Shown here piece after piece: positions 3,260 to 64,000 of a stretch of DNA of 64,000 nt. This DNA is from Acanthochromis polyacanthus (lineage: Eukaryota; Chordata; Actinopteri; Pomacentridae), in the NCBI RefSeq assembly GCF_021347895.1, contig NC_067122.1, forward strand, positions 40,801,082-40,865,081. The letters run 5' to 3'. The notes under the pieces were generated by a model that made no database searches, was not told the DNA's origin, and saw nothing but the letters and a program-made list of their open reading frames with translations. The stretch's first letter is position 1; the number at the start of each line of letters is the position of its first letter. The position numbers and the translations under genes were made by a program.

Positions 3260-3383
3260 CAGTGATCATCAACTGGCGGCCCGCGGGCCGAATCCGGCCC
3301 GCTGAACCGTCCAATCCGGCCCGCGACTGGATTCCAAAATTGTGAGGATCAAAGAGAAAATATCATGTGGTCCACACTATTAA

Positions 3384-16160: not shown

Positions 16161-16234
16161 GACTGAACAACTAAAGTAAGTGCTACATGCATATTACCAG
16201 AGCTTATATCTGAAAGGGGCCACATACGTGCATA

Positions 16235-17868
<1,634 letters not shown>

Positions 17869-44449: not shown

Positions 44450-44653
44450 AGGGTCCGAGCACCGAGGTGCCGAGGACAGGCGGTGCAAGGGCACCGGCTG
44501 TCCAAGGCACCAACGGTGCCGTAGGACTCTATTGAAACCCTACGGTTTATTATTATTAGGGTCCGAGCACCGAGGTGCCGAGGACAGGCGGTGCAAGGGC
44601 ACCGGCTGTCCAAGGCACCAACGGTGCCGTAGGACCCTATTGGAACCCTACGG

Positions 44654-44701
<48 letters not shown>

Positions 44702-46633
44702 TGTCTCTCAGAACAACTGCATTTTTGAGGGCCTAAACATGCTCAAAAACTCATGAAAATTTGTACACACACCAGAACTGGTGAAAAATTTTATATTCTA
44801 AAGGAATTGTGGTAGTGTATGACAAAATGGCTCCATAGCGCCCCCTACAAAATTTTAAAAAGTGGTATTAGGCCAACTCGGAGGGAATTTGGCCGAGAGC
44901 TAAAAAATTTGGGAGGCATATGCAGCACATCAGGAAACACAAAAAAGTCAATCACAGCCATGCTCTACACCCAACAGGAAGTGCGCCATCATGCGTTAAC
45001 TGTACAAAATCTATGATGAACTCCTCCTAGGGGAAAAGTCTGAGCGATCTGAAATTTTGCCAGTACATACAGCAGACCTTCCTGAGAAAAAGTTATCAAA
45101 ATCTTCCTCCATAGTTAAAGGGTGTGGTCGTGGCGGCCTGTCGAAATTTGATCCTTCGCCATGAAACAGGAAATGCTGTCTAACTCTCCTGAACATGCTC
45201 CGATCTGAATGAAACTTTACATGTATGATCACAGACCTGCCTCGATGACATCCATACAGCAAGATTCATTCACAGTCACAGCGCCACCTTGTGGTATCAA
45301 GAATTTGACATTTTTTACACTTTCATGTACTATTCTTAGCCTGTTGCTCAGATTCACCTCAGATGTTGTGACATAAGCCTGAACACATTGATGATGAAGC
45401 ACAGAAAAAATGGTGACGTGTGATGAAAAGGCGTGTCTGTGGCGGGACGGCAAACTTTCATGTTTCGCCATGAAAATTGAAGTGTTCATATCTCAGCTGC
45501 AAAGGATCCTATCTGCCCCAAACTTCATGTGCTGGACACCAGAACCAGTTTGAGGACATCCACACTGAAAAATTTAGAAAAAGTCATAGCGCCACCTCTT
45601 GGTAACAAGCAGTTTAGAAATTACATTTGCACACATCATTGCTCCAAACTTTGTCATATCATTCTGAAAATTGGTCAGCTGATTCTTCACCCCCAGACAA
45701 TACCACAGTGTGAAGATTTTGATTTTTGATGAAATGCTGTTGCCGTGGCAACGCGTTGTTTTTGTGACAAACAAAGTACTTTTTGACAGGCTTAGAATGT
45801 TCAACAGCTCACCAAAATTTACACACACATCACAGTCGTCTCAAGGAATAACACTGTATGCATCTCTGCAGGGCATGTGCTATAGCGCCCCCTGCAGTAT
45901 GTTTAATAAACAGCCCCCGCAGCATGTTTCACCAACATCCACAAAATTTGGGAGGCCTATAGAGCACACCAGGACACACAAAAAAGCCTCTTGGAGCCAT
46001 CCCCTAAACTCAACAGGAAGTCCGCCATTTTGAATTAAGTGGATAAAATTTCTGTATTTTTTTCATTTTTGAGAGCGAACTCCTCCTCGGGGTTAAGGTC
46101 TGGAGAGCTGAAATTTTGCCAGGATATACAACACGATGTTATGATCAAAAGTTATTAAAAGATTCTTGCAGAGTCAAAGGGTGTGGACATGGCGACCTCC
46201 AGAATTTTGATGGTTCGCCATGAAACATCAGGTGCTACCTAACTATCCTCTGCATGCTCCAATCTACCTCAGAACTCACATGATTAAACACAGTCCTTTC
46301 CTGATCACATTTATTGGCCAAAATACATTCACAGCATGTACCATAGCGCCCCCTACAGCATTTAAATAATAGCCTCCACACAGACTTTCACCTATATCTA
46401 TGAAATTTGGCATGCATATGTAGCACATCAGTGCAAGCAAAAAAGTCTCTTGGAGTCATTCTCTAAACCCAACAGGAAGTTGGCCATTTTGAATTAAATG
46501 TCAGATTTTTGGTGTTTTTGATCATTTTTAACAAATGATTTCTCACAGGCAATAGCTCCAAAACATCTGAAATTGGGACAATATATACTACACGCCTTCA
46601 GGTTGAGTATTTGTGAAAATTGTTCACAAAACT
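44450..46633 (+). mobile_element. Hairpin-headed repeat, copy C, cut off at its 3' side
   Basis: Two complete header modules (about 44450 and 44557) and a long ATT run (44646-44701) precede a body that matches copy B with an offset of about 2.57 kb. Homology stops abruptly after CACAAAACT at 46633, where copy B continues CAAAGGGCGTGGCC. I read this as the insertion point of the Helentron. Confidence 0.78.
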
Positions 46634-47570: not shown

Positions 47571-50500
47571 TTATTCGGCCTTGTCATTAAAACAACAAAC
47601 TATTCCCTCGTGCTCACTAAAATAAGTAGGCTGCACCACTGACTTCACTTCATAACGTGTTGTTTTAATATACACATGATCAATTAATGTGCCCTTTTCT
47701 GTTGTAGGTTCTGTTACAACCTGAGTGTAGCCTTTTTCTGTTACAAATGAACAGATATTTGATGACTTCAAAATATCATCATTGAAATCTCCCATGACAG
47801 CAATGGTGTCACTTATTGGATCTAGCCAATCTAGTAACTTACCAAGATGCTGCTTAAACAAAGACATGGGATAGGATGGTGGGCGATAAATGACCGCTAT
47901 CAGTAGGTTGTATGTAAAATAGTTGTAGATCAAGCATTCCAGATTCGAATCAGGAGCTTGAATGACATTATATGCCACATTGTTTACGCTATACATACCT
48001 ACTCCACCATGTTGTTGGGCTCCTAATTCTACTAGTGCTGGGTTTTTACTACTATACGCTAAACATCTAGGACTGTTATTAAAACTGTAACCATCAATGT
48101 AAACACTATTAAATGAAGAGCCAGAAACCAGCCATGTTTCTGTAACAGCAATACAGTGAAGCTGCAAATGCTGCGTGCACAATTTCAAATCTGTGACATG
48201 TGCAGTTAAGCTTTGCACATTCATCAAAAACACAGTAAAACATGCTTTATTTATTACATGGTTTCTGCCCTCACTCAAAAACCGTGGCATACTATCAATG
48301 GCATCCTTCACATTAGCTTTACAATATATAGCTTGTTCATCAAAATCTTGAATTATCAAACCTGACAGACTGCGAACACGACTTAACGCCACATAAGCCT
48401 GTCCTGCTGCAAATACCTTTTTAAGACAGACCACAGCACTATCAACAGTAAGGCCTTGCACCTTATGGACTGTACAAGCCCAGGCAAGTTTCAATGGAAA
48501 TTGCCGGCGCATTCCACCTTTACTGGTAGCCCTTTCTTCCTCTGGTTCAATGGGTGTTGAACCCAGTAAATCTGCTGACACATTTGCAGTTTGTTTCCTC
48601 CTTTGTGCACCAATGATGTCATCATCAAACTTGACATACACTTTCAGAGGAAACTTACTAGTGTCAGACTCCACTATGTGTGTTACTGTACCACACACAC
48701 CATTGACAAGGCCATCTGTAACATCAACATTTTTACAAAGCATCACCCGGGCATCTTTACCAAGGAACAGAATGTCCTCCAAGCATGTGTTGGAGACTTT
48801 GGCATGATGCTTGTCCAACAACTCCAGTTTCCCTGTTTTCTTGCTGTTCACATAGTCTTGGGCGTCAATTTTAACAGATTGAGGACATGTCTTAAATAAC
48901 TGCACTAAATTATGCTCATTTACCTGTCTGTTAGTAGGAAAGATGTGCAAAGCTGAGCTGACTTCACCACTTTCACAATTTCTCAATTTTTCTACATCAC
49001 TATCTAGCATTACAGTCCCTTTGCATCGAGTTCTAACCCTGTTCAATATTTCTGCAAACACAACATCTTTTTGCCTAACTATAGTTTTCAACTCAGCAAC
49101 CTTAAACAGACCAGACCACAGGTTGACACCGCCATCATCAACGTACAGGGGCTTTCCCTTAACAGGCGGCAACTGATAAAAATCTCCCACTGCCACAACA
49201 CTGATATTTCCAAAAGGGGAAAAGTCACCGCTTTGTTTGATCTGCCTTAATCTGCCATGGATATAGACCAACAGTTTATGATCTACCATGGAGATTTCAT
49301 CAATAATCAGTAATTGCAGATCACAATATTTGGCACGGAGAGTATTAATCTTCTCCTCACCTAAAGGTGTGTATGGTAAACGTATATCTTTGCCAATACA
49401 AAGCGTGTTGTGAATAGTTGCTGCACGCAAATTGTATGCAGCAATCCCCGTAGGAGCAGTCAACAAAACACAAGTGTTGTCAGGATGACGACATGTTGTT
49501 GACAACAACCTCATGGCCTCATACTGAATAGCCTTGATTAAATGAGATTTCCCTGTACCAGCTCCTCCAGTGAGAAACAAGTGAATTGGATCTGGCCTTT
49601 TACCTGCTACCTTATTTAAACACCACTGGCGTATCTGATAAAAAATAGCCAGCTGCATCTCATTCAGAGATCTAATCAAACTCAAGCCATCACTTCTGCA
49701 CATGATGTTATTTCGCTTTTCCAAATGAGCTATCTCTTTGCCAATCACTGCCAGGTCAGGAATACTTTCAACATGTTCTTCCACTGTCTGCGTGTTAGCT
49801 TTACGCTCCTCTTTACATTCTAAACGCTCTAACTCTTGTTCTGGACACAACTGGCACCAGGCACCTTCATCAACATTATTGATATCCACAGCATTTTCAA
49901 TATTTTCTAATTTTTCTGCTTCTATTTCAAACTGACTTCTATTGTCATCCACAACAGACTTAACAGAATGTGTGGATCCGTCACTAAACCTCACAACACC
50001 ATTGTTGTAAAACTGTTCAAAAGTTTCACAGTTTGGAGGCTTTAGCTCTGCATCAACATGGTACGGCAAAAACAATTGCAGAATGCTCTGATAAAATGCT
50101 TCAGGCGTCTTTGTCTCAGAAAATCGCACATAGCGTACAACTGCTGGTTGTGTACGTGTCCTTTTGGTTACAAAACCACATTTATTTTTTAATGTAACAC
50201 GACTGTGGCATTTTTCATTCTTACTCAGAATACGATATTCTGATGCAAATGTTGCCATACACATGTCACTAAATGTGCTGTCATCGGGTCTATTCTTGTA
50301 CCTATCCACAATATTGCTCATCCACATCTGTTCAGTTGTTAAATCTTCTGATGAGGCCTTTTGTTTTAACACATTTAAAGGCAAACTCATCCTAACAATG
50401 TTGTCACCTGTTGGAACAAAAACTACTTTTCGCGAACATTCTTTTAAATGCATACTGCTAGTCAATCTATAAACACCTTCCTGTGCACAAACATCACGAT

Positions 50501-53500
50501 TATGCAGATACACACTGCCAAGGTTTTTCAAAGCTTCTCTAGCACTAATATTTTTATCCTTTGCTGCCTCCCTCTGAGCATTCCCTAACAACAGTCCAAT
50601 CTCCCTTTCTGCCTTAGAAATGTATGAAATTATGTACACTATACAAGCATATGCATCAACCACATACTGAATGTCCAAATTTGCATTCCAACATTTTAAA
50701 AGTGACTTATTGTATTGGTTAACCCAAACCTCATTGATGTCCCTCTTCAACACCACATGAGTTTTACCACCACCACAGCGTTTATAAGCCCTCTCAAAAC
50801 TGTCTTGATCTATACCTACACTTGCAAACAAATGCTCCAAATTTTCAAAACTAATTTTCTCATCAGACAGTGCTTTCTTCACTGAATCCAAAATCTGCAG
50901 CGCTCTGTCTTTGCGCATAACACAAATACAGCGTCCCAAGCTATCTCTGTTATCTACCTCATCATCCTCATCTAAATCACACTTACATTTTCCTTCGCTA
51001 TCTTCAGCACGACATATAAAAGTTCTCATAGATGAAGGCTTGGGGAAATTAAAACGACACACTGTTTTGTTTTTCTTACATGTTTTAGAGTGTCGTTTTG
51101 AATGCTGCTGCACTGATTTCACAATATCCAATAATTCCTCATCCTCTGAGGGTAACTCACATGTCACATATTCATCGATAAATTTGATCACCTCTTCATC
51201 AGTGTTTTTATCAATTACTGGTGCGTTTTCTATCCAAAATAGGCAATGCACATGTGGGGAACCACGCTGCTGAAACTCCACCCGGTAAAAGTAGTCCTTA
51301 ATTTTACCAATTGGATGGGATGCAGACATCAGGACTTCTCTTAAAAAACAATGCCACCTGAAATCAAACATTCGTGCCGCAGTGACAGGATTGCGACGCA
51401 ACAACTCACATCTGTCTGCCCACTCTAAGCTTTCAGGAGTCTCTGTTCTGCCTTCCTGTTTTAAAATACTATTCAAAAGGTTATGCCAGCGCAGGTCAGC
51501 AGAAGAAAATGAACAAAACCATGTGGGGATACCAAGCTGACGCACACACGCCAGTAGGTCACGCTGTGCTGCCTGCCAAAAAGCTGGGGTACCTCTAATA
51601 GGTTTTAAAAACCTATAACCATCATCAAACTGCAATAATTTGTTCAAAGACTCTTCGTTCACCTGATCTTTATCAATTCTGTGGGACTTATTACCTCCTT
51701 TTCCTTTACGTAGTGCTATTGATACATTTGACACAACCTGTTCTAACTCAGACATGTACTGAGCAAAAAATATGTATTCTACATTTCTAGCAAATCTACC
51801 ATCAGCATGCAAAATTCGGTTATTGAAATAACGTGATAATGTTAAACGATGCTCCCTTGTTTCATGAAATGTGTTACAGGCCTGTGGAAACAAGACTGGA
51901 AAGCATTTGGCCTCATTGTCTGGATCAGAGAGTAATTTAACAGGGTTATTCCCTTCTGCTGGGGCCACATTCAGAATATTATCAAAATATTGATCCAGAG
52001 CTTCCTGTCCAACATCAACAGGCATGAGACACGTATCTTGAAACATACAGTGCTGCTGCCTGTCATGAAGAAGTTCATCATCATTATTTGTCAATGCATC
52101 ATTATTTTCTACCTTATCTGTCTCATTTGCAACATCTGTACTGTCATCTTCCATACACAATACATTTACCCATTTATCATTGAATTCTATATCTTTATAA
52201 TGCCTATTTTCATTCTTTAAATATTGCAATGCCTGCCTTATGTGCATAGTGTCCACAAATTGGTATTCATAGTGTCCTTTATATGTTAATTTTCGCTTTA
52301 ATTTAACTGGCAACAATGAGCCCTCCATATTAGAACGGGGCAGCAAATTGCTTGTCTGCACTATGTTTGCAGGAACACATGTCACTGGTCCATGTACTCC
52401 ATTTTGCCCACCTTTAGGTAAGGCTAGCATTTTCTGAAATGGTATGTGCAATGCTATTAAATGCTGCTCTAAGCTGTTCAAAGCTGACAACTGTGGTGGA
52501 ATTGGATGAAGTCCCATTTTGTTGACAGCACAATCAGCAGGCATTTCACCTTTCCTAATTTTGCTATTACAAGTGAAACAAATCCACAGCTTACCTCTAG
52601 ATGTTTCCACCCATAGACATGGTATTTCACAATCATCAGTACATCTATGAAGGTATTCATCTGAAATGCATCTATCTGCAATCACAGCTATGTGTTCACT
52701 GTTTTTGTAGGATTCTCTTTTGCATTGTAAAACTTGATGTCTAAACAATAATCTGTGGCAAACAGAACATACAAAGTCGGGCCCATATTTTACCTTCTCT
52801 AAGAACTGTTTCATAACTACATCAAACTGGTGTAACCTCTCTTTCATGTCTTTTTTCCTCTGTGTGCTAGCTGCTATGACACGCTCTTTATGCTCAGAAT
52901 TTTCATGATACTTCCTTATACTCCTTTCCTTGGCTTTTTCCCTATGCAAACTATTATCCAAATATTTGCTTTTACTCATTTGCTTGACTTTTTCCCGATG
53001 CAAAATATTATCCAAATATTTGCTAACACTCCTTTGTTTTACTTCCTCCCTATGCAAAATATTATCCAAATATTTGCTAACACTCCTTTGTTTTACTTCC
53101 TCCCTATGCAAAATATTATCCAAATATTTGCTAACACTCCTTTGTTTTACTTCCTCCCTATGCAAAATATTATCCAAATATTTGCTAACACTCCTTTGCT
53201 TTACTTCCTCCCTATGCAAAATATTATCCAAATATTTGCTAACACTCCTTTGTTTTACTTCCTCCCTATGCAAAATATTATCCAAATATTTGCTAACACT
53301 CCTTTGCTTTACTTCCTCCCTATGCAAAATATTATCCAAATATTTGCTAACACTCCTTTGTTTTACTTCCTCCCTATGCAAAATATTATCCAAATATTTG
53401 CTAACACTCCTTTGCTTTACTTCCTCCCTATGCAAAATATTATCCAAATATTTGCTAACACTCCTTTGTTTTACTTCCTCCCTATGCAAAATATTATCCA

Positions 53501-53501
53501 A
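47571..53501 (-). CDS. Helentron Rep/helicase/endonuclease part
   Basis: This uninterrupted 1,976-codon stretch begins inside the 18-residue repeats. It contains a zinc-binding and DUF6570-like region (CSVCHRLLF, CFTCNSKIRKGEMPADC, about residues 230-390); the Helitron-like N-terminal region; the HUH Rep nuclease with GSPHVHCLFW near residue 749 and paired tyrosines in DAYACIVYIISYISK near 954; and a Pif1-type helicase with Walker A GGAGTGKS near 1314, LLIIDEISMVD near 1402, GDFYQLPP, and HKVQGLTVDSAVV and YVALSRVRSL near 1690. From about 1750 an APE-type endonuclease follows (MNVQSL, AVTETWL, GDFNDD near 1906, SEHEGIV at the end). All key motifs are intact. The final endonuclease marks it as a Helentron rather than a classical Helitron. 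Confidence 0.95.
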   Translation of the reverse strand: MDNILHREEVKQRSVSKYLDNILHREEVKQRSVSKYLDNILHREEVKQRSVSKYLDNILHREEVKQRSVSKYLDNILHREEVKQRSVSKYLDNILHREEVKQRSVSKYLDNILHREEVKQRSVSKYLDNILHREEVKQRSVSKYLDNILHREEVKQRSVSKYLDNILHREKVKQMSKSKYLDNSLHREKAKERSIRKYHENSEHKERVIAASTQRKKDMKERLHQFDVVMKQFLEKVKYGPDFVCSVCHRLLFRHQVLQCKRESYKNSEHIAVIADRCISDEYLHRCTDDCEIPCLWVETSRGKLWICFTCNSKIRKGEMPADCAVNKMGLHPIPPQLSALNSLEQHLIALHIPFQKMLALPKGGQNGVHGPVTCVPANIVQTSNLLPRSNMEGSLLPVKLKRKLTYKGHYEYQFVDTMHIRQALQYLKNENRHYKDIEFNDKWVNVLCMEDDSTDVANETDKVENNDALTNNDDELLHDRQQHCMFQDTCLMPVDVGQEALDQYFDNILNVAPAEGNNPVKLLSDPDNEAKCFPVLFPQACNTFHETREHRLTLSRYFNNRILHADGRFARNVEYIFFAQYMSELEQVVSNVSIALRKGKGGNKSHRIDKDQVNEESLNKLLQFDDGYRFLKPIRGTPAFWQAAQRDLLACVRQLGIPTWFCSFSSADLRWHNLLNSILKQEGRTETPESLEWADRCELLRRNPVTAARMFDFRWHCFLREVLMSASHPIGKIKDYFYRVEFQQRGSPHVHCLFWIENAPVIDKNTDEEVIKFIDEYVTCELPSEDEELLDIVKSVQQHSKRHSKTCKKNKTVCRFNFPKPSSMRTFICRAEDSEGKCKCDLDEDDEVDNRDSLGRCICVMRKDRALQILDSVKKALSDEKISFENLEHLFASVGIDQDSFERAYKRCGGGKTHVVLKRDINEVWVNQYNKSLLKCWNANLDIQYVVDAYACIVYIISYISKAEREIGLLLGNAQREAAKDKNISAREALKNLGSVYLHNRDVCAQEGVYRLTSSMHLKECSRKVVFVPTGDNIVRMSLPLNVLKQKASSEDLTTEQMWMSNIVDRYKNRPDDSTFSDMCMATFASEYRILSKNEKCHSRVTLKNKCGFVTKRTRTQPAVVRYVRFSETKTPEAFYQSILQLFLPYHVDAELKPPNCETFEQFYNNGVVRFSDGSTHSVKSVVDDNRSQFEIEAEKLENIENAVDINNVDEGAWCQLCPEQELERLECKEERKANTQTVEEHVESIPDLAVIGKEIAHLEKRNNIMCRSDGLSLIRSLNEMQLAIFYQIRQWCLNKVAGKRPDPIHLFLTGGAGTGKSHLIKAIQYEAMRLLSTTCRHPDNTCVLLTAPTGIAAYNLRAATIHNTLCIGKDIRLPYTPLGEEKINTLRAKYCDLQLLIIDEISMVDHKLLVYIHGRLRQIKQSGDFSPFGNISVVAVGDFYQLPPVKGKPLYVDDGGVNLWSGLFKVAELKTIVRQKDVVFAEILNRVRTRCKGTVMLDSDVEKLRNCESGEVSSALHIFPTNRQVNEHNLVQLFKTCPQSVKIDAQDYVNSKKTGKLELLDKHHAKVSNTCLEDILFLGKDARVMLCKNVDVTDGLVNGVCGTVTHIVESDTSKFPLKVYVKFDDDIIGAQRRKQTANVSADLLGSTPIEPEEERATSKGGMRRQFPLKLAWACTVHKVQGLTVDSAVVCLKKVFAAGQAYVALSRVRSLSGLIIQDFDEQAIYCKANVKDAIDSMPRFLSEGRNHVINKACFTVFLMNVQSLTAHVTDLKLCTQHLQLHCIAVTETWLVSGSSFNSVYIDGYSFNNSPRCLAYSSKNPALVELGAQQHGGVGMYSVNNVAYNVIQAPDSNLECLIYNYFTYNLLIAVIYRPPSYPMSLFKQHLGKLLDWLDPISDTIAVMGDFNDDILKSSNICSFVTEKGYTQVVTEPTTEKGTLIDHVYIKTTRYEVKSVVQPTYFSEHEGIVCCFNDKAE

Positions 53502-56500
53502 ATATTTGCTAACACTCCTTTGTTTACTTCCTCCCTATGCAAAATATTATCCAAATATTTGCTAACACTCCTTTGCTTTACTTCCTCCCTATGCAAAATA
53601 TTATCCAAATATTTGCTAACACTCCTTTGCTTTACTTCCTCCCTATGAACCACATTAAGCTGGTATTTCCTTCTACTACTTTGTTTTAGTTGCTTCCTAT
53701 ATGTTACATTTTGCCTATATGACCTTGAAGTCCTATCCTTAATATTGTGCTGATACAACTTATTTCCCACGTATCTGTTTTTCTTGTTGTTGTTCACTGC
53801 TTCCCTCAACATCACACTTTGTTCATATTTGACCTTCTTCTGAAAATTCCTTTTCTTTTTCAAATACTTAGAAAAATAATATTGTTTGCTGGAATTAACT
53901 ACACACCTTGTATTACAAGTAAGACTGTCATCACCAGCAACACTACTTTTAGCTCTACTCTGCTGTCTGAAATTGTAACCTTCAGAAATACCAAAACGGA
54001 CTTTGCAGTAACCATAGCAACTCTGCAATTGAGGTCGTTGTACACAAACAACAGTCTCATAATGGTTACCATTGCAGTTCTCTAAATATACTCCCTGATT
54101 TGTCAACATCCTATTCTTGCAACTATATTCAAGCCAGCGATCATCACAATAAGTAAAAATATTTACCCTTAAGTAATCTGCTGTTGCTTGAATCTCAAGT
54201 TCCGTAGCCCATCTGCCAACATAGCGCATTTTGGAAATTGTGAGATATTCTGTCATTGACGAATACTCACTCCTCAAAAGCTTTTCATATTCTACAGAAT
54301 CGGTTTCCAAAAGCTTTACAACTGCCAATCTAAGTTTTCTATGATGCTTCTGTGTACCACTAACAGCTTGACTAACTGCTCTAAAGAAACAATTACCATC
54401 TGCTTCTATTTTGTCATTGTGACATGGAACACCTAAGTCACCAACTTCATCATGCACTACTTGCAATTTTTCTGACTTTATGTTCAACTGTGAACACAGA
54501 GCTTGCACAACATCATGACAAAGAGGATGAAAAAGAAGCTTTCTAGTTGTCACATCACTGACAAAAACATCCTCAGCTTCACTAACTTCAGTCCCTTTTA
54601 GCCTTTTTGATGAACAAGTCTTCCTCACCATAGGACTTTTAACACCTCCCTGACGATTAGGGGCACCAAATGTTGGTACAAAGGAGCACTCTTCATTGAT
54701 ATCAAAGTCACTGTGTACACTGTCTGAAGATGATGAACAAACAACTAACAAATCTTTCACTGCTGGCCCTTTGTCAATGCAGTGAACACCTGCAATCTCA
54801 AACGACTTTTGATTTTTGCTGAGTCCCCTTCCCAATTTGCAGATGTGTTCACACACATTGTCAAGGCTACTATAATAAACTACTACACTCAAGCCATCTC
54901 CATCAATCATTCCACTAACACTGCGTGCATGCGAGTCAAAAAATGCATAACGACCACCTTCTCTAATAATAGCACATGTAGTGTTTACCACAGTGAGAAA
55001 GCATGTGTGATATTCTGTGAACATCTGTTCTAATCCATGCTTTAAAGGTGTATACACCCCTGTCGATATTAAATCTCCATCTACAACATCAACATCACCA
55101 CTGACATAGTCACCATATTGAAACTCAAAGTTGTGTCCATCAAAAACATACTGTTTAGGCAATTCTGGGACACACAGAAAATTATAACCATCAGTAATCA
55201 TCTTGTTTGCTTTCAAAAATGTGTACAACCTATCACCTGCAACTACGACCTCATCCAAAGTGTTTGACTGCCATAAGAAAACATTGTCAATGGTATGTTT
55301 TGCAATGGCTGCTAAACTTATAGCCATACACTGACGACCACCATTGTCAAAACGAGCATCTGCCTGATGAAAGGAACCCCTGACAGATGTCACTACATTT
55401 TCACACATGGAAAAGCAAGTAACCTCACTGCCACCATTAACATTACTGTCTGTGACTGGAACTGCAGCCCTGTCCTCTACTTCACTTGCCTCCACAGTAA
55501 TGCTGCTAATAGCATACCACTTTGGCTGTAGTACACGAATCATATTAATGATATGAAGCATCAAATCATTAAAACAAGTGTTAAAAACAACCACAGATCT
55601 GCCGGTTCTAGAAGGCAACCCAGATGCATCACATGTTCCACAATTAACCATTACAAAATAATCTTTATGATGAAAAATAGCAGTAACCAAGCCATGCAGA
55701 TTCAACAACGACATGCCATCAACCAACAACAGTTGTTTCATGTTCTCAAAGAAACACTCATCTTCCAAGGTACCAAAATGCTTGTACATTGGCACACCCA
55801 ACTCTACAATCCACTTCCTGCCAAACATACTGTGATGTTGTCTCAATTTGTCTCCAACAACAATTCTCTCACTGCCCTCCATGACATCTAAAGCCAACTT
55901 GCTTCCTGCAACACACACATCATCTATATCTGCCTGTTTCCATGTACACACGGGAGCAATCACATGTTTGATTGCAGCCACTACACTACATCCTGTCAAT
56001 ACATTTACATCATGTAGCAAAGTTGCATTCCTCACATAACTACCACAAACGAGAGGTGCTGGCAGTTTTTCACACACACACGGTTTACAAAAAATACCAG
56101 TCTTACTTTTGTTGGACACATGAGTGCTCAACGCAGCGTCCACCTCCTCAGACACATGCCCTGGCACTGCCCTTGAAGATAGTTGCTTGGAAGATGTGGT
56201 CACAAGACGTTCAGCTACCTCCACCTAAATAAAAAAAAATATGGAATGAATACAAATGCACATATTTTCAAAAATGATATGTTTCATGATTAGCAGTATA
56301 ATAAACTTACATTTAAATTAAAATTCTTCAATAAATACATGACCTTACAAGTCACTATAACACTTTGCACTGTCAGTAAAAGAAAAAAATACCAACCTCT
56401 TCCCTGACGAACACATTTGCAGTCTTGCTAGGTGATCTCCTGGAACACACCTGCACACTACTACGACCTGGTTCCACCTGCAACAACATTTTAACAGTTA

Positions 56501-58776
56501 ACTCAAAGAAACTTGTATATTTCCATTATTCATACTCGTTTGCATGAAGTTTTCACTGATCGGACATATCATTGCTTCTTTGCAATTGTAAATAGTACAT
56601 GAACCTTTCTCTCCAACAGTACACAGAAGAAATATTTTACCTGCTGCTGTGGCAGGTTCTTGTTGGACACGGCACACCTCTGCTTTCTCTTCACATGTGG
56701 CTTCTACAACAAAACAAACAAAAAAATGTTATTACAGACATTTTAAGTAACAGCACATCATATATAACCAGATAGCTGCAATGTGCAAGTATTATACCTG
56801 TCTGCGAGTTGTAACAGCTGTGCTGGATGGAGGAGAAGCAGGGGGTGATGTAGGAACATTTTCCTCCTCATCCAACAGAACAGCAAACCTGCCACGAGTT
56901 ATCGAGATGGAACAGGACTCCTGAAGTCTCTCTGGCAGCTTTCTCTGTAAACAAGTAAAATAGTAGATGTTACACAACTGCTCCCCTTGACTGATGATTG
57001 GGCACAACAAAGCAGCTCAAATAATCACACCACAAAGTTACATGACACTATGTTCTACCTTCTGGCCAACACGTGTCCACTCCAAAGGGTCGACTGGTGG
57101 ACGTGGTTTGCTGACCTCTCCTTTCACAACCACTTTTGGTGAGAATCTGGCCTGGTATGACTTGGGTGGGGTCGGTGGTTTTGTGACTGGTGGCTGAAGT
57201 ACCTACAAAAACAATATTCACAAACAATTTCATTTATTAAACTCAGCACAACAATGAGTTAATGCTATATGTAAACAATACATTTTTCAGTGCATATGTC
57301 AAAAACATGTATATACATAATAAAAACAAAAAATAGCACAAAAGCCACACAACACATGGAAATGTAAAGAGTTACCAAGCCTTACCATGTAGGAAGCAAA
57401 CCACAGCAACTGTGTCAGGATAGGCATCCCCACATCGTCGGACAGATGGACCTGTAAAAAGTCACAAATATAATTAACTTCATATTATTTGTTTTCATAT
57501 GTACAAAACTAGTCAATATAATTCTTCCACATTATACAATATAATGTCATACCTACCCCGTCATAGCACCACAAATCCAGATTTGTGAACGGAAAACACT
57601 CAGCAGTGGAGAAGTACTTCACACCTTAAAAAAAACAACAACAACACTATATTACTAAATAGAACAAAATATACATTGGATTGTATGTACTATTCAGTAA
57701 AGGTAACATATAAACAAAATACATAATCAATATATTTAGCTAATTCTACTGATCATTTATAAACATAAAAATGTGCAAGTATTACTATTCTACGTACCCA
57801 TAGCTGCAGCCACACGGTGGTACTCCTGACGAAGATGTTGCTGCAGCTCCACATCCTCCAAACGTGGAGGAAAGTCTTGAACTACCACCTTTAAAACACA
57901 ATTTTACCTCATTATAATTCCATCAAAAATTATGCAGATTTCATATGTTACACAGAATTTTTCATAACCTAATTATTATTATTCATTGCAAAAGAAGGCT
58001 AATATGCTTACATTGTGATGGAGACTACAGATACTGGCCAGAAGTTTTCTGAAGTCAGTTGATGCCTTGGAGATATTTCCACGAGAAAGGTCATTGCTTG
58101 GAGCAAGGAGACACACGGCGTCAGGCTTCCGTGGCAGAACAGCATTCAGAAACTCCTTCCTCAGATCAGCTGCAACTGCCCCTGGTGTGGACATCACCCC
58201 AAAAGAAAGCCCTCCAGGTCGCATCGGGACAATTCCATTGGCGAGATTTCTGAGATGCGAGTCCCCGACAAGCAGAACAAACTAAAAACAAAACAGCAAA
58301 TTTTAAAGTAAACACCATAATAACATAAATGTATAATATATATATAAAAAATAGTCATATCACATATATATACATAGAAAATATTAAAACTTTTATTTCC
58401 CATCAACCATCAAACCACACTCATACCTTCTTGTCTGGTGACTCGTCTGGAATAACCAATTTGTGCCAACGTTGAGTCACTGTAGACCTCTTCCATGTCG
58501 GCCCCTCAGCACGGCAACCAGTACCGTGGTCTAGAATAGCAACACAAAACAACAAAATATTAATGTCTGTCATTTACAAATCCCTTTATGGTATGAAATT
58601 ATGTGAATTAAACAAACTCTGGGGAAAAAAACTCTTCAAAATACAAATAATTGAAAATGTCAATACATACGAGGAGGAGAAGAAAGTTTGTGCTGGGGAT
58701 GGATGGTCTCAGAATGTTGCTTCTCCATCCTCTTCTTAGCAGCCAAAACACGCTTATGGTTCTTTCCACGTGGCAT
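47571..58776 (-). CDS. Helentron giant polyprotein: SGNH - C76-like x2 - OTU - Rep - helicase - endonuclease (spliced)
   Basis: I join ten small exons and one large one on the minus strand: 58671-58776, 58427-58530, 58012-58281, 57798-57888, 57557-57624, 57386-57451, 57059-57202, 56798-56944, 56641-56703, 56397-56477 and 47571-56224. Every junction has GT/AG and the phases agree (1,0,0,1,0,0,0,0,0,0). The ATG at 58776 follows a splice acceptor (TTTATAG) directly. The product would be about 3,260 residues if one missing base near 53522 in the repeat array is allowed for; as it stands the frame is broken there. The protein would nick, unwind and transfer the element as a rolling-circle transposase, with added hydrolase and protease domains whose roles are unknown. 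I rate the exon joins as good but unproven by transcripts. Confidence 0.8.
52960..53646 (-). repeat. 54-bp coding tandem array (18-residue units)
   Basis: About a dozen nearly identical 54-bp units encode DNILHREEVKQRSVSKYL. More divergent units flank them on both sides (for example DNILHREKVKQMSKSKYL and NVTYRKQLKQSSRRKYQ). The units are basic and probably helical and may bind nucleic acid. At about 53519-53526 one unit reads TTTGTTTACTT where the others have TTTGTTTTACTT; this lost T shifts the frame and is the only break in the large exon. Confidence 0.95.
53471..56224 (-). CDS. Helentron protease part: C76-like domains and OTU
   Basis: The first part of the large exon is open for about 900 codons, up to the frameshift. 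Residues about 60-230 and 282-465 are two related domains. The second reads RGSFHQADARF, GRQCMAISLAAIAKH (Cys at 299), LDEVVVAGDRLY and AFFDSHAR (Asp-x-His at 430-432), matching herpesvirus tegument-type (C76-like) ubiquitin proteases. The first keeps GSY, WKQADIDDVCVAGSKL and SVVVF but lacks the Asp-x-His. Residues about 600-730 are an OTU protease with EADGNCFFRAV (Cys 612) and NGNHYETV (His 721). The exon begins at a GTG directly after a TTTATTTAG acceptor, so it is not a translation start. Basic repeats follow. Confidence 0.85.
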   Translation of the reverse strand: MEVAERLVTTSSKQLSSRAVPGHVSEEVDAALSTHVSNKSKTGIFCKPCVCEKLPAPLVCGSYVRNATLLHDVNVLTGCSVVAAIKHVIAPVCTWKQADIDDVCVAGSKLALDVMEGSERIVVGDKLRQHHSMFGRKWIVELGVPMYKHFGTLEDECFFENMKQLLLVDGMSLLNLHGLVTAIFHHKDYFVMVNCGTCDASGLPSRTGRSVVVFNTCFNDLMLHIINMIRVLQPKWYAISSITVEASEVEDRAAVPVTDSNVNGGSEVTCFSMCENVVTSVRGSFHQADARFDNGGRQCMAISLAAIAKHTIDNVFLWQSNTLDEVVVAGDRLYTFLKANKMITDGYNFLCVPELPKQYVFDGHNFEFQYGDYVSGDVDVVDGDLISTGVYTPLKHGLEQMFTEYHTCFLTVVNTTCAIIREGGRYAFFDSHARSVSGMIDGDGLSVVVYYSSLDNVCEHICKLGRGLSKNQKSFEIAGVHCIDKGPAVKDLLVVCSSSSDSVHSDFDINEECSFVPTFGAPNRQGGVKSPMVRKTCSSKRLKGTEVSEAEDVFVSDVTTRKLLFHPLCHDVVQALCSQLNIKSEKLQVVHDEVGDLGVPCHNDKIEADGNCFFRAVSQAVSGTQKHHRKLRLAVVKLLETDSVEYEKLLRSEYSSMTEYLTISKMRYVGRWATELEIQATADYLRVNIFTYCDDRWLEYSCKNRMLTNQGVYLENCNGNHYETVVCVQRPQLQSCYGYCKVRFGISEGYNFRQQSRAKSSVAGDDSLTCNTRCVVNSSKQYYFSKYLKKKRNFQKKVKYEQSVMLREAVNNNKKNRYVGNKLYQHNIKDRTSRSYRQNVTYRKQLKQSSRRKYQLNVVHREEVKQRSVSKYLDNILHREEVKQRSVSKYLDNILHREEVNKGVLANIWIIFCIGRK
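56397..58776 (-). CDS. Ten small exons encoding an SGNH-hydrolase N-terminal domain and linker
   Basis: Exon 1 is basic (MPRGKNHKRVLAAKKRMEK). Exon 3 (58012-58281) begins FVLLVGDSHLRNL, with the nucleophile Ser of SGNH block I, and contains VCLLAPSNDLSRG, with the block III Asn. Exons 4-6 give DFPPRLED, YHRVAAAMG, FSTAECFPFTNLDLWCYDG and VHLSDDVGMPIL; the joined DGVH supplies Asp-x-x-His of block V. So the full catalytic set is present in one spliced frame. Exons 7-10 are rich in proline, serine and basic residues. SGNH proteins are esterases or lipases; the substrate here is unknown. Alternatively these exons are a separate gene just upstream, but phase and spacing (introns of about 80-210 bp) favour one transcript. 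Confidence 0.78.
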
Positions 58777-58912
58777 CTATAAACATATTAACACAACCAC
58801 ATACTTATTATGAAAAGCTTACATCTCTGCAGAATTCAACACAAGCTGCATTCATTCAATTTATCAACAACAAATATCATTAGAAAAATTAGAACAAAGT
58901 CATTAGTGCAGC

Positions 58913-60160
58913 AATGGCATTATTATTTATTGTGGCATTTATAATGTATGTCTCTTTTATTTTATGATTCTTTCGTTATCATTATAAAGTCTGCTCTGTA
59001 TCAGAGTTGATGCAGAGAATGTTTGCTGAGTTCTGTGCAAACTTTGATAAACCACTTTCATATGTCACCCCACCTATGCTTCTTCATTTCAACATGGATA
59101 CCACCAACAGCTGGGCTCCAGCCATTCAGACAATAGAGACCAATCAGTGGGTCATTACATCGCCCATCAGAGAACAATTGATACCAATCATGAAAACCTG
59201 TTGGACCACTTGAAGACTTGGCATTAGTGATGCACAAATACATGTCTCATGTCACATCTAAATCCTCTAACATCCAATAATTACACGAAGTCTTCTGTTA
59301 TTATTGCTATGGCTGTCATTAAAAAAATGCTTCAACAAATATCTACATTAAAGATGTTTAACAGTTTTCTCTCAACATTGCCATCTTACATTGTTTCAAA
59401 TGCAACACTTTTCACCACAATTTATTTTACATTCATCATTATCCTCCATTAAAACTAACTGGTAACTAAATTCAGTCAATACTCCTAGATACAAATCCTG
59501 TTAAAACATATCACCTTTAACTTTACTGTGCAGCTCTTCAAAAATTATGCCAACATTGATTATTAAAATATATACATTCCACACGTTTAACTGATTTCTA
59601 CCAACATCCCCGCCGTATTCATTTAGAATGTAGTGATTTTGACCATAATAGATTTAATATAACTCAATATTCCGCATTAAAACTCATATAAAGTACACAT
59701 CTGTACATTACAGATTATTGTATGAAAATACATAAATAGCTAGAAAAAGTTGTCTCTCTTGTGTAAAGGAAATGCATTTTAACAGAAACTTTGATTTAAC
59801 AAACACATTTCAAAACCAATTTCTTGATATTTGTTAAATCTAAATAATATTTTGACTTGGTTAAAGTCACTCACAAAAACAGAACCTGACTTTGATAAAC
59901 CACTTTCATATGTCACCCCACCTATGCTTCTTCATTTCCATATGGATACCGCCAACAGCTGGGCTCCAGCCATTCAGACAATAGAGACCAATCAGTGGGT
60001 CATTACATCCCCCCATCAGAGAGCAATTGATACCAAAACCTGTTTGACCACCTGAATACTACACCTTGGTTAAATGTTTAAACTAAAACTCCATCTTAAC
60101 TCACACAACTGATTTCTATTAACAATTTCACTAAATTTACTTTTACAAAACACCACATAT
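58913..60160. repeat. Duplicated segment, copy 1 (in the Helentron first intron)
   Basis: This ~1.2-kb stretch, starting near GGCATTATTATTTATTGTGG, recurs at 61516-62870 with few changes. Within each copy a ~170-bp phrase (GATAAACCACTTTCATATGT ... CCATCAGAGA) occurs twice. Compared with the second copy it lacks about 120 bp after 59250. Confidence 0.88.
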
Positions 60161-60270
60161 AAATCCTCTCTAAAGGGCCATTGGGCAGCCATTAAAGCAA
60201 GTAGGCGGACAGGAGAACCCAACAAACATTCTGCACCTAACTTTGTATAATTCTAACAAACAAAAACAAT

Positions 60271-60558
60271 ACTAGAAAAGCACTCGGAGAGCGCAGATCT
60301 CCGCCAGGCCATCTGTCTGTCTGTCTGTCTGTTAACAGCATAACTCAAAACGTCATGGACGGATTGTATTGAGTTTCAATACTTGTGGCCATCTCTCTCA
60401 ATTGTCCTTCGACCTTCAAAAAAATCCTGGATCCAGACGGTGATCCGGATCACCTCCAAAATCTAATCGATTGTTACTTGTGCTCTTCCGGACATTCTGT
60501 AAAAATTTGGTGAAAATCCGTCCATGACTTTTTGAGTTATGCTGTTAACAGACACACA

Positions 60559-60629
<71 letters not shown>

Positions 60630-60691
60630 ACACACACACACAGACGGACAGACAAGCAAACTCCGGTGATTACATAACGTCCTGGCGGAGG
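60271..60691. mobile_element. TIR-like element, copy 2, with foldback arms
   Basis: The ends match the element at 20176-20602 (ACTAGAAAAGCACTCGGAG, then CTCCGCCAGG; CCTGGCGGAGGT at the right). Inside, GTTAACAGCATAACTCAAAA near 60332 is inverted near 60530-60550, so the outer ~100 bp of both sides form arms. CTGT and CA repeats (60315-60331; CA run about 60551-60642) lie in equivalent arm positions. No coding frame is present. Confidence 0.75.
60551..60642. repeat. CA dinucleotide microsatellite
   Basis: A long CA run lies within the right arm of the TIR-like element, broken by a single CATA. Confidence 0.95.
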
Positions 60692-60877
60692 TAACAAATA
60701 TAAAAAGAAAAATGATATACAGATATATGGTATATTATACATCACTAATACCACAATTAATAATAATACCATCACTGCAGTACTGACCCTGTTGTACTAT
60801 AACTACAATTAATACAACATGCTGTTCTACACACGCATCACTTTCAACACCACAAAAATATTAGAGAAATCACTCAC

Positions 60878-61045
60878 CTCGATAGTACCAAACCAAACAC
60901 GTAGCAAAAAGAGAAAATAGGTGAAAAAAAATGGCTCAAAGAATATTCTTTGGTCAGGAGAACACGCAAATCCTCACAATACGTGAAACTAAAAGTCTCT
61001 GGTCTGTGATGAAGTGTGTGGAGCCTCTCGGAGACAATACCGAAA
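60878..61045 (-). other. Probable 5' UTR exon of the Helentron gene
   Basis: The minus strand carries a strong donor, ATCGAG/GTGAGT, at 60878/60877, downstream of a TATA-type promoter. The next acceptor on the same strand is the TTTATAG immediately before the ATG at 58776, so the first intron is about 2.1 kb. The upstream limit is set at about 30 bp from the TATA box and is approximate. The segment has no in-frame long coding stretch. Confidence 0.55.
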
Positions 61046-61071
61046 GACGGCGTTCACGTTCCTCACCTGAA

Positions 61072-61122
61072 TATTTATACATTTGTGAAGGGGCGTGGTC
61101 ACAACACACAGTCCGCCAATCA
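61072..61122 (-). promoter_or_regulatory. Promoter of the Helentron gene (TATA, CACGCCC and CCAAT motifs)
   Basis: The minus strand reads TATAAATA at 61072-61079, preceded by CCACGCCC at 61091-61098 and by an inverted CCAAT box (GATTGGCGG) around 61113-61121. The order and spacing are those of a classical RNA polymerase II core promoter. The 5' UTR exon donor lies about 200 bp downstream on the same strand. Confidence 0.6.
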
Positions 61123-61515
61123 GGAGCACCACAGAGGAATGTGGGCAGGTCATACTGGGATGATTTTCTTAAATTTGAAGCTGGAGAAAAGCTTCAAAAA
61201 GCTCGATTAATTCTGTCCCTTCTTTGCTTTTTACTGTTGTCTCAGTTTTCATTTTAACTGTTGTTTCAATCATTCATTTACTCTGACAGATCACAACTTC
61301 TGCTGACCTGCTGCCATGTTTCCCTCATCCCAGCTCCGCCGTTTCTGCTGTAATTATTTACTGGCTTATTTAAGGTTTCACATTAAAATCAACCTTAAAA
61401 ACGTCTCCCTTTAAACAAAACATTTGCTCACATTTATGTATTAACAACAAAAACATCCATCCAAACGACAAATTCTTCTGTGTAAACACATCCAACTGGA
61501 TATTACTGAAACCAA

Positions 61516-62864
61516 TGGCATTGTTATTTATTGTGGCATTTATAATGTATGTCTCTTTTATTTTATGATTCTTTCGTTATCATTATAAAGTCTGCTCTGT
61601 ATCAGAGTTGATGCAGAGAACGTTTGCTGAGTTCTGTGCAAACTTTTATAAACCGCTTTCATATGTCACCCCACCTATGCTTCTTCATTTCAACATGGAT
61701 ACCACCAACAGCTGGGCTCCAGCCATTCAGACAATAGACACCAATTAGGGGGTCATTACATCGCCCATCAGAGAACAATTGATACCAATCATGAAAACCT
61801 GTTGGACCACTTGAAGACTTGGCATTAGTGATGCACAAATACATGTCTCAAAAGCACATTGCTTTAATTACTAAATAGCTACTACACCTTGGTTAAATGT
61901 TTAAACTAAACCTCTATCTAACCTCACACAACTGATTTCTATTGACTATTTCACTAAATTTACTTTTACAAAACACCACATCTAAATCCTCTAACATCCA
62001 ATAATTACACGAAGTCTTCTGTTATTATTGCTATGGCTGTCATTAAAAAAATGCTTCAACAAATATTTACATTAAAGATGTTTAACAGTTTTCTCTCAAC
62101 ATTGCCATCTTACATTGTTTCAAATGCAACACTTTTCACCACAATTTATTTTACATTCATCATTATCCTCCATTAAAACTAACTGGTAACTAAATTCAGT
62201 CAATACTCCTAGATACAAATCCTGTTAAAACATATCACCTTTAACTTTACTGTGCAGCTCTTCAAAAATTATGCCAACATTGATTATTAAAATATATACA
62301 TTCCACACGTTTAACTGATTTCTACCAACATCCCCGCCGTATTCATTTAGAATGTAGTGATTTTGACCATAATAGATTTAATATAACTCAATATTCCGCA
62401 TTAAAACTCATATAAAGTACACATCTGTACATTACAGATTATTGTATGAAAATACATAAATAGCTAGAAAAAGTTGTCTCTCTTGTGTAAAGGAAATGCA
62501 TTTTAACAGAAACTTTGATTTAACAAACACATTTCAAAACCACTTTCTTGATATTTGTTAACTCTAAGTAATATTTTGACTTGGTTAAAGTCACTCACAA
62601 AAACACAACCTGACTTTGATAAACCACTTTCATATGTCACCCCACCTATGCTTCTTCATTTCCATATGGATACCGCCAACAGCTGGGCTCCAGCCATTCA
62701 GACAATAGAGACCAATCAGTGGGTCATTACATCCCCCCATCAGAGAGCAATTGATACCAAAACCTGTTTGACCACCTGAATACTACACCTTGGTTAAATG
62801 TTTAAACTAAAACGCCATCTTAACTCACACAACTGATTTCTATTAACAATTTCACTAAATTTAC
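61516..62864. repeat. Duplicated segment, copy 2
   Basis: This is homologous to 58913-60160. After CACAAATACATGTCTCA it carries an extra ~120 bp that ends at AAAACACCACATCTAAATC; similar sequence (TACACCTTGGTTAAATG ... AAACACCACAT) is found at the end of copy 1, so the extra part is itself a repeat. Near its end a small SINE tail has inserted (62876-62905). Confidence 0.88.
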
Positions 62865-62875
62865 TTTGACAAATC

Positions 62876-62905
62876 CATCCATTCTCTATACACCGCTTTA
62901 TCCTC
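62876..62905 (-). mobile_element. 30-bp SINE tail insertion
   Basis: The minus strand reads GAGGATAAAGCGGTGTATAG followed by AGAATGGATG, exactly the 3' end of the SINE. Perfect 11-bp copies of TTTGACAAATC flank it (62865-62875 and 62906-62916). It is an extremely short but clean retroposition. Confidence 0.9.
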
Positions 62906-62925
62906 TTTGACAAATCGTCTCCCTT

Positions 62926-62927
<2 letters not shown>

Positions 62928-62968
<41 letters not shown>
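62928..62968. repeat. TA dinucleotide microsatellite
   Basis: An uninterrupted TA run. Confidence 0.95.
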
Positions 62969-62971
<3 letters not shown>

Positions 62972-63054
62972 ATAGAATATTAAATCATTAACATTCAATT
63001 CCTTGTGTTTTTCTTTTTTGATGATTTTGTGTACTATAACACAGTGTCTGACTT

Positions 63055-64000
63055 GAATACGCCTAGCTACAATTCTTGTTACAATATATCACCATTAACT
63101 TTGCTGTGCAACTGTTAGAAAAATACAACAGCATTTATTATTAAAATATATACATTACAAACGTTTAACAGATTTTTACTGATATTCCTGTCATCATTTG
63201 TTTAGAGTGCAACGGTTTTGACCATAATATATTAAATATAGCTTAATATGCTGCATTAAAACTCATAGAAACTACACAGCTATACAATAAACATTATTAT
63301 ATAAAGAAAACATAAATAATGGCAAAGTTCTCTCTCATGTGTAAAAGAAAGACTTTTAAGCAAGAACTCTGACTCAACAAACACATTTTAAAACCACTTT
63401 CTTGATATTTGTGAACTCTAAATGCTTTTGTTATGACAACGACGCACTAATGTGCGCATTACAGGAGGGAAACACGGCAAACACCTACCTCCCTCCCAGG
63501 CATTTATCCATCCCATACCTGGGCGTGGGTTTGTGCTGTGTGGTTTGGTGCTTGATGGACATTTTCTCTCAATCTCCACTCGGTTGATCACCAGCCATTA
63601 TCAGGGAAAATGCTCACATTCCTAGTAAATGGTCCTCATTTCATAATGAATAGATAGTAGCCAGACCCATCTGGCACAGTTCTGGGAGTAAAAACAACAT
63701 GACAAACCTGGGATTTCAAGTGTTAAAAGTAACTGGTCACTAAAGTCACTCAATACTCCGAGATACAAATCCTGTTAAAAAATATCACCTTTAACTTTAT
63801 TGTGCAGCTCTTCAAAAATTATGCCAACATTTATTATTAAAATATATACATTCTACACGTTTAACAGATTTCTACCAACATCCCTGCCGTTATTCATTTA
63901 GAATGTAGTGATTTTGACCATAATATATTTAATATAACTCAATATGCTGCATTAAAACTCATAAACTACACATCTGTACATTAAAGATTATTGTATGAAA
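63055..64000. repeat. Further copies of the duplicated AT-rich unit
   Basis: 63055-63430 is a diverged copy and 63720-64000 a close copy of the segment at about 59460-59850 (shared phrases ATTATTAAAATATATACATT, CATAATA-ATT(T/A)AATATA and ATTAAAACTCATA). The window ends inside the last copy. The 290 bases between them hold no recognised gene. Confidence 0.8.

Follow-up and report, generated by a model that had tools for sequence, protein, structure and literature searches.

An SGNH hydrolase of the texim type, supposed to be a captured fish gene, looks from sequence comparison as if it were a functional component of a Helentron, a rolling-circle DNA transposon. The Helentron gene concerned lies on the minus strand of a 64,000-nucleotide stretch of the 957-Mb genome of Acanthochromis polyacanthus (G000:C10:40801082-40865081, hereafter the window). 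It would have taken in the hydrolase as a cassette of small exons, inserted between its own N-terminal exon and a giant exon encoding protease, Rep, helicase and endonuclease domains. We consider this reading likely as a whole, and the anatomy of the gene, with the cassette between those two exons, very probable. As sequence comparison shows, the cassette keeps its catalytic residues and is in frame with the transposase, in the window as well as in other-fish gene models, and in the copies of a second Helentron family (family 2) it precedes the transposase as intron-bearing DNA. Relatives suggest that the enzyme has been kept working, that it travels with the element and that it may have moved between distant transposon families. 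The SGNH part would be an active acyl- or acetyl-ester hydrolase that works for the transposon either at membranes or on proteins carrying acyl groups; its site of action would be the germ line, the place of texim expression. Such a membrane or acyl-ester role is suggested by analogy with the proposal for the esterase in open reading frame 1 (ORF1) of CR1/L2 long interspersed nuclear elements (LINEs), and we put it forward tentatively.

Ten small exons (58776-56397) join into a stop-free frame of 380 codons, with GT/AG at all borders, and this frame enters exon 11 at 56224 in phase 0 (Table 1). This structure, proposed in a first-pass annotation, was borne out by the sequence, and fish proteins support its borders as far as exon 6. 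Three of them, P0008, P0001 and P0006, were aligned to the window by a splice-aware script. The P0008 alignment matched the first-read borders of exons 1-6 and the start of exon 7, that of P0001 matched exons 1-5 and the start of exon 6, and that of P0006 matched exons 3-5 together with the exon 2 donor and the beginning of exon 6. The linker exons 7-10 are placed less firmly, because the three alignments picked differing borders; the junction 56397/56224 was recovered with P0001, but not with P0006 or P0008. As the annotation had said, fish proteins of the same kind exist: in other-fish gene models the SGNH exons stand in frame before the Helentron transposase, in the same order. With residues 1-380 of the long protein as query, we retrieved 32 clusters of 2203-3541 residues, 42-54% identical and all from fish by name. 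Helitron Rep is annotated in 32/32 of these clusters (Pfam column), a protease domain in 28/32 and an endonuclease in 27/32.

The active-site residues expected for an SGNH hydrolase, Ser, Asn and an Asp-x-x-His assembled over a splice junction, could all be located. The catalytic codons are at 58260-58258 (Ser78), 58182-58180 (Gly104), 58095-58093 (Asn133), 57562-57560 (Asp212) and 57448-57446 (His215), and Asp212 and His215 are encoded by separate exons. The four blocks of the SGNH/GDSL hydrolases, with Ser, Gly, Asn and His, are present in the window residues and in an alignment of 152 proteins, made of the 32/32 clusters joining SGNH to Rep and the 120 best-listed of 264 SGNH relatives; the four residues are retained in nearly all of the 152. 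The SGNH fold was likewise recovered. A profile search of the joined protein, proposed earlier as a check, detected Lipase_GDSL_2 (E 3.1e-6, 28.2 bits against a gathering threshold of 32.9) and SGNH (E 5e-4, 20.2 bits against 27), both under the Pfam cut-offs, and PF13472 is annotated in a number of relatives in the precomputed Pfam column. The SGNH module is not a chance occurrence, because there are Pfam matches and 32 fish protein clusters at the above identities; a chance open frame was also rejected on the catalytic residues, the homology and the shared introns. Note that the related copies on contigs C22 and C7 have lost part of the active site, since the catalytic His is replaced by Asn in the former and GDSH by GNSQ in the latter. 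Among the 120 SGNH relatives listed of 264, the closest are fish texim proteins, and TeximYa of Sparus aurata (UniRef, 51% identity) is one of those listed.

Exon 11 carries the Helentron domains. Rep and a PIF1-type helicase stand in one protein with a C-terminal apurinic/apyrimidinic (AP) endonuclease, as in Helentrons: Pfam gave E-values of 6.9e-32 for Helitron_like_N, 6.1e-21 for PIF1, 2.6e-18 for DUF6570 and 3e-7 for Exo_endo_phos. In the 5' part of the exon, the second of two tegument-type stretches matched Herpes_teg_N (E 6e-6) and has its Cys and Asp-x-His, and the OTU domain (1.2e-10) has DGNC and its His; the first tegument-type stretch, recognised by eye, has the Cys and lacks the Asp-x-His. 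The Rep, helicase and endonuclease domains of the giant exon were confirmed, but the single open frame reaches only to 53471, where it is broken by a single 53-nt unit in a 54-bp array and resumes as 53534-47571. A CR1 LINE ORF1 adjoining the Helentron by accident was rejected, as the gene has no reverse transcriptase match and its exons are in phase.

The module lies in frame before the transposase, as first described, but not at the very front of the gene. It sits behind exon 1, whose basic peptide, MPRGKNHKRVLAAKKRM, is probably the Helentron's own N-terminal peptide and is shared, by pattern, with SGNH-lacking Helentrons; several SGNH-lacking relatives appear to keep a similar peptide immediately before the protease domain. 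With the Rep and helicase part (RepHel) as query, the 120 best-listed of 616 relatives were scored for SGNH by profile, and 38/120 carried it. Over 126 proteins of both lists, an MPRxK-type start (a loose pattern) was seen in 32 of the 44 with SGNH and in 21 of the 82 without. In a BLAST comparison of nine SGNH-lacking proteins with the window, residues 14-25 of five (by their names from cyprinid, loach and characin fish) align to window residues 416-429, so some 400 residues are missing where the N-terminal peptide gives way to the first protease-like stretch. Helentrons without these exons, which the annotation had regarded as a possible refutation, do exist, but the module itself is not refuted by them. 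The N-terminal peptide tracks RepHel: of six family-2 database proteins, four have a start of this type and these carry M(P/T)RKG.RS, which occurs in 0/33 family-1 rows.

Two observations on these N-terminal peptides stand apart. The texim-like proteins P0078, P0137 and P0139 (Paramormyrops, Denticeps, Neoarius) have MPRKG.RSEAA, a peptide of family-2 type, at their start, so SGNH Helentrons like those of family 2 may exist beyond spiny-rayed fish. In SGNH-lacking Helentrons (e.g. P0225, P0228, P0219; that of P0228 reads MPRTKASRRSAAAKKR) the N-terminal peptide is similar to the tail of histone H3, whose sequence is ARTKQTARKS. It may mimic that tail or act as no more than a basic nuclear signal.

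The cassette accompanies other Helentrons in the same genome. We scored RepHel copies at 24 of 1173 candidates, so that the 19 family-2 copies among them are a sample; these are 40-41% identical to the window, with frames of 1,963-2,359 residues, one with a stop. The other five comprise the window itself, a related C22 copy, a C-terminal fragment (96%) on C20 and copies on C16 and C18 (38-40% identity, one stop each). Partial copies with SGNH and Helentron pieces were found on C7 and C3. In 19/19 scored family-2 transposase copies, SGNH exons lie 4,529-5,328 bp upstream on the same strand; with the 32 clusters joining SGNH to Rep, the expectation of the same exon order next to other Helentrons held. 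The family-2 SGNH gene (2.1 kb with introns) matches 44 stretches, 38 of them longer than 1.4 kb at 90-100% identity, query included; a domesticated single gene was rejected given these 38 places. Around the SGNH core, window and family 2 have intron positions and phases in common, before GTG, before F(V/I)LLVGDSHL, at MG/VK and at DG/VHLS (the slash marking the intron), and their 104-nt and 68-nt exons are of the same size. As differences, family 2 lacks one window intron and has an extra one behind the first exon.

In the family-2 copies, the SGNH module is under purifying selection comparable to that on the transposase, as judged from the ratio of nonsynonymous to synonymous substitution rates (dN/dS). 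The SGNH core is open in 11 of 13 copies (13 of the 38 places were sampled), with a stop in one and partial codons in one. Leaving out the decayed copy L053, dN/dS is 0.29 over the SGNH part (205 codons) and 1.14 over the linker (40 codons), and it is 0.24 over the transposase exon in a different sample of 19 copies.

Among 41 proteins with both domains near complete, RepHel separates two families with a support of 1.0. RepHel identity is 38% between families and 63% and 68% within them, and SGNH identity is 54% between the RepHel families and 52% and 60% within them; SGNH and RepHel identities correlate with r 0.34. In 33 of the 41 proteins (six near-identical rows, P0205 and P0207 having been set aside), RepHel has maximum-likelihood distances of 0.73 inside family 1 and 2.27 across families, SGNH has 1.11 and 1.00, and the SGNH/RepHel ratio of ratios is 0.29 (0.25-0.34). 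SGNH is no less similar across two distant Helentron families than inside one, which suggests cassette exchange; the distances, together with an N-terminal peptide that tracks RepHel, favour a move of the SGNH exons from one family into another, downstream of exon 1. Distances and exon structure suggest that SGNH exons were passed between Helentron families, although both families may instead have captured SGNH independently from one gene lineage.

The gene may be expressed in two splice forms, a long SGNH-VTD-OTU-Rep-helicase-endonuclease protein and a short SGNH protein without the transposase, which we infer from one NCBI gene model and the platyfish structure. The model, P0150 (591 residues, LOC110972953 isoform X1), aligns to family 2 over the SGNH and linker exons and the first 68 nt of the giant exon, and its tail matches DNA just past the RepHel stop, from about 150 nt after it; this tail was placed by a separate search, the last exons in the spliced alignment being forced. 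The acceptor pattern of the short isoform is present in 19/19 family-2 copies. Since stops interrupt the tail frame in one of five aligned copies, the tail may only supply an end. Transcripts ending before 56397 or starting in exon 11 had been named as a refutation of the fused gene; the family-2 model does omit most of the transposase exon, and the module is not refuted by it. Splicing over the transposase exon, as in P0150, would account for the Helitron that was described within the last intron of teximY/1. For family 1, a tblastn search with the C-terminal 130 residues of 120 shorter proteins against the DNA downstream of the window stop gave no match at 1e-2, and a donor-like GTAAGA in exon 11 (56106) is a hint only.

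Several observations weigh against a texim-type cassette kept and exchanged by Helentrons. Helitrons without texim are reported in the same fish (Tomaszkiewicz 2014, PMC4021074, consulted in part). What the N-terminal peptides have in common is a pattern: with the window start as BLAST query, the first 17-37 residues of four SGNH-lacking proteins gave only E-values of 0.03-3, these four of the nine SGNH-lacking proteins align only from window residue 610-661, in the second protease domain, and 61/82 SGNH-lacking proteins do not have the start pattern, though these are not scorable as true absences because many of their models are cut at the N-terminus. Pooled family-2 dN/dS over all four SGNH and linker exons compared is 0.41, and dN/dS between the window and the decayed C7 copy is 0.69. 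The window copy carries the frame break, whether by mutation or through a fault in assembly. As its acceptor the short isoform would use GAG, which is unusual, and its donor context was found at four of six loci searched. As for exchange, an approximately unbiased (AU) test on 35 of the 41 proteins did not reject a single family-2 SGNH clade (p 0.064, log-likelihood difference 30), the backbone of the SGNH tree lacks resolution, with starred branches forcing only one change of family label, and the label is clustered to some degree (it needs 4 changes where shuffles average 6.4-6.5; 1 and 6 of 500 shuffles need as few). The exchange reading rests on the distances, because the AU test, the weak backbone and the label clustering do not back it.

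If the SGNH cassette was already present in the common ancestor of both Helentron families and was lost in other lineages, exchange need not be invoked. The intron positions common to the window and family 2, the unrejected family-2 clade, the clustered label and the weak correlation of SGNH and RepHel identities would all fit such vertical descent; it is opposed by the distances, which for SGNH are the same across families as inside family 1 but for RepHel rise threefold, and by four hemichordate and abalone Helentron proteins (P0233, P0236, P0240, P0242) in which the profile found no SGNH match, their starts not all being complete. The fullest reading of our data joins two statements: that the cassette is a mobile, intron-bearing domain swapped between families by exon shuffling, and that keeping or splicing out the 7-kb exon gives either a polyprotein or a small esterase, texim being the transposon's second protein. 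Because the family label is clustered, we give this joint reading slightly less than an even chance and regard vertical descent as rather unlikely instead of dismissing it.

Alternatively, texim could be a fish gene with a role of its own (e.g. in spermatogenesis) that Helitrons captured and took along as a passenger, and the fusion to the transposase a prediction artefact. Texim-like genes occur without Helitrons in Oikopleura, amphioxus and sea urchin, texim is expressed in testis, and a Helitron lies 3 kb past the texim2 stop codon (all PMC4021074, consulted in part); many shorter SGNH proteins are annotated alone among the 120 listed of 264, and P0150 ends in exons behind the transposase. 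However, in P0150 splicing also takes in the first part of the giant exon, the frame is open into that exon, the SGNH exons accompany every scored family-2 copy, relatives with a similar N-terminal peptide have an empty site, and the copies themselves show the contrast in dN/dS between SGNH and linker. We regard the captured host gene as improbable. The SGNH fold might also act without catalysis, as a lipid- or RNA-binding module like the OSK domain of Oskar: OSK chains 5a4a and 5cd9 are among the Foldseek matches, and liposome binding by the ZfL2-1 esterase does not depend on the active site (PMC3905857, consulted in part). A pure scaffold would have no need of Ser, Gly, Asn and His, and their near-universal retention makes this role unlikely. 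Among solved structures, neither phmmer with the 380-residue protein nor a profile search gave a match, and the ZfL2-1 esterase entry 4c1b was absent among the structure matches listed.

Table 1. Features of the SGNH-Helentron gene and its surroundings in the window.
Feature	Position	Strand	Remarks
TATA motif; inverted CCAAT	61079-61072; 61120-61116	-	just upstream of the candidate leader; putative promoter motifs
Possible leader exon	60878..61048	-	donor GAG/GTGAGT at 60878; 5' end assumed
Exon 1, first coding exon	58671..58776	-	start ATG and basic peptide; border in spliced alignments
Exon 2	58427..58530	-	104 nt; texim cassette begins; equal length in family 2 and C22 copy
Exon 3	58012..58281	-	catalytic Ser78 (GDSH), Gly104, Asn133 (SND)
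Exon 4	57798..57888	-	in family 2 merged with exon 3 as a single 364-nt exon
Exon 5	57557..57624	-	68 nt in window, C22, C3 and family 2; Asp212
Exon 6	57386..57451	-	His215; DGVH assembled over splice junction; complete borders from P0008 only
Exon 7, linker	57059..57202	-	borders weakly supported
Exon 8, linker	56798..56944	-	borders weakly supported
Exon 9, linker	56641..56703	-	borders weakly supported
Exon 10, linker	56397..56477	-	phase 0 into exon 11
Exon 11, 5' part	53471..56224	-	two tegument-type (VTD-like) stretches, then OTU
54-bp tandem array	52920..53647	-	13.5 copies
Exon 11, 3' part	47571..53534	-	DUF6570, Helitron Rep, PIF1 helicase, AP-type endonuclease; stop at 47571 end

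Upstream of the coding exons, an AG acceptor lies 0-1 nt before the ATG at all four loci examined (0 nt in the window, C22 and C7, 1 nt in family 2), which supports a leader intron, not a particular leader or promoter in the window. The leader region (61200-60711) had no second match in the genome among the matches listed. A high-copy repeat occupies 60254-60697 within the proposed leader intron, with inverted arms at 60314-60365 and 60515-60566. Direct repeats extend over 58912-64000 and past the window end; with 300-nt references, second copies are 98-100% identical and others 62-97%, and the repeats are confined to one place among the genome matches listed. Behind the transposase, repeats at 44000-46633 are common to the C20 copy (L011) in a shifted register and are perhaps the element's 3' region. 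By eye, a basic tandem repeat of about 18-22 residues, with differing units, precedes DUF6570 in P0001, P0006, P0008, P0026 and the window. Other transposon pieces in the window are a reverse transcriptase with an AP-type endonuclease in overlapping frames (13748-16193, minus), another reverse transcriptase piece at 2469-3305 (plus) and a DDE_3 endonuclease (16894-17649, plus). Family-2 copies lie on C20, C13, C9, C19, C3, C4 and C7, and on C20 and C13 they cluster towards the ends; in a raw count of family-2 places only, 21 of the 32 with a known end distance (32 of 38) are less than 1 Mb from a contig end.

Contrary to the first-pass annotation, which knew of no description of an SGNH domain joined to a Helentron, a link between SGNH hydrolases and Helitrons in fish is already known. 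The texim genes (teximY and texim1-4) were described as a captured gene, with a Helitron 3' of texim or, for teximY/1, in the last intron; their 15 exons came from prediction and from expressed sequence tags, reverse-transcription PCR and rapid amplification of cDNA ends, and testis expression from quantitative reverse-transcription PCR (PMC4021074). Guppy copies of texim are noted in PMC7643365 (consulted in part). New here are the module inside the Helentron gene, its linkage to all scored family-2 copies, the dN/dS comparison, the between-family SGNH similarity and the P0150 splicing. An in-frame SGNH-Helentron gene was not found among the literature titles and abstract starts listed, a search that leaves subscription papers and Repbase reports outside. 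Our reading joins the texim work on fish sex chromosomes with deubiquitinase-bearing Helentrons, and makes the 2014 question, passenger gene or transposon helper, directly testable. If it is true, texim, so far regarded as a host gene that Helitrons picked up, would be a second protein belonging to the transposon itself, and sex-linked copies in platyfish and guppy may need re-reading as transposon parts.

The window gene resembles texim in its enzyme family, in its place 5' of a Helitron and in its many small exons, as well as in the arrangement of teximY/1, with the Helitron within the last intron. It differs in that the consulted part of PMC4021074 presents a separate captured gene, with no in-frame fusion, common N-terminal exon, empty-site relatives, selection test or family exchange. 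With the Helentrons bearing VTD and OTU domains (PMC9741609, PMC4067079, both consulted in part) it shares RepHel with a C-terminal AP endonuclease and the tegument-type deubiquitinases, two of which occur in one zebrafish element, and the OTU found in some; the main text of PMC9741609, as far as consulted, does not contain the words SGNH, esterase or lipase. To hydrolases of the platelet-activating factor (PAF) acetylhydrolase and TesA types, identity is just 16-18% across the aligned part. Finally, the esterase ORF1 of CR1/L2 LINEs (ZfL2-1; PMC3905857, PMC4120745, both consulted in part) is likewise a case of a transposon using an SGNH esterase, one suggested to have been transferred between the L2 and CR1 lineages (PMC4120745). 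The linked reverse transcriptase of those elements has no match in the window gene, which carries RepHel in its stead and, compared by description, is a spliced cassette of a rolling-circle DNA transposon as opposed to a retrotransposon ORF1 with a coiled coil. This parallel in an unrelated class of transposon may point to a common need for SGNH.
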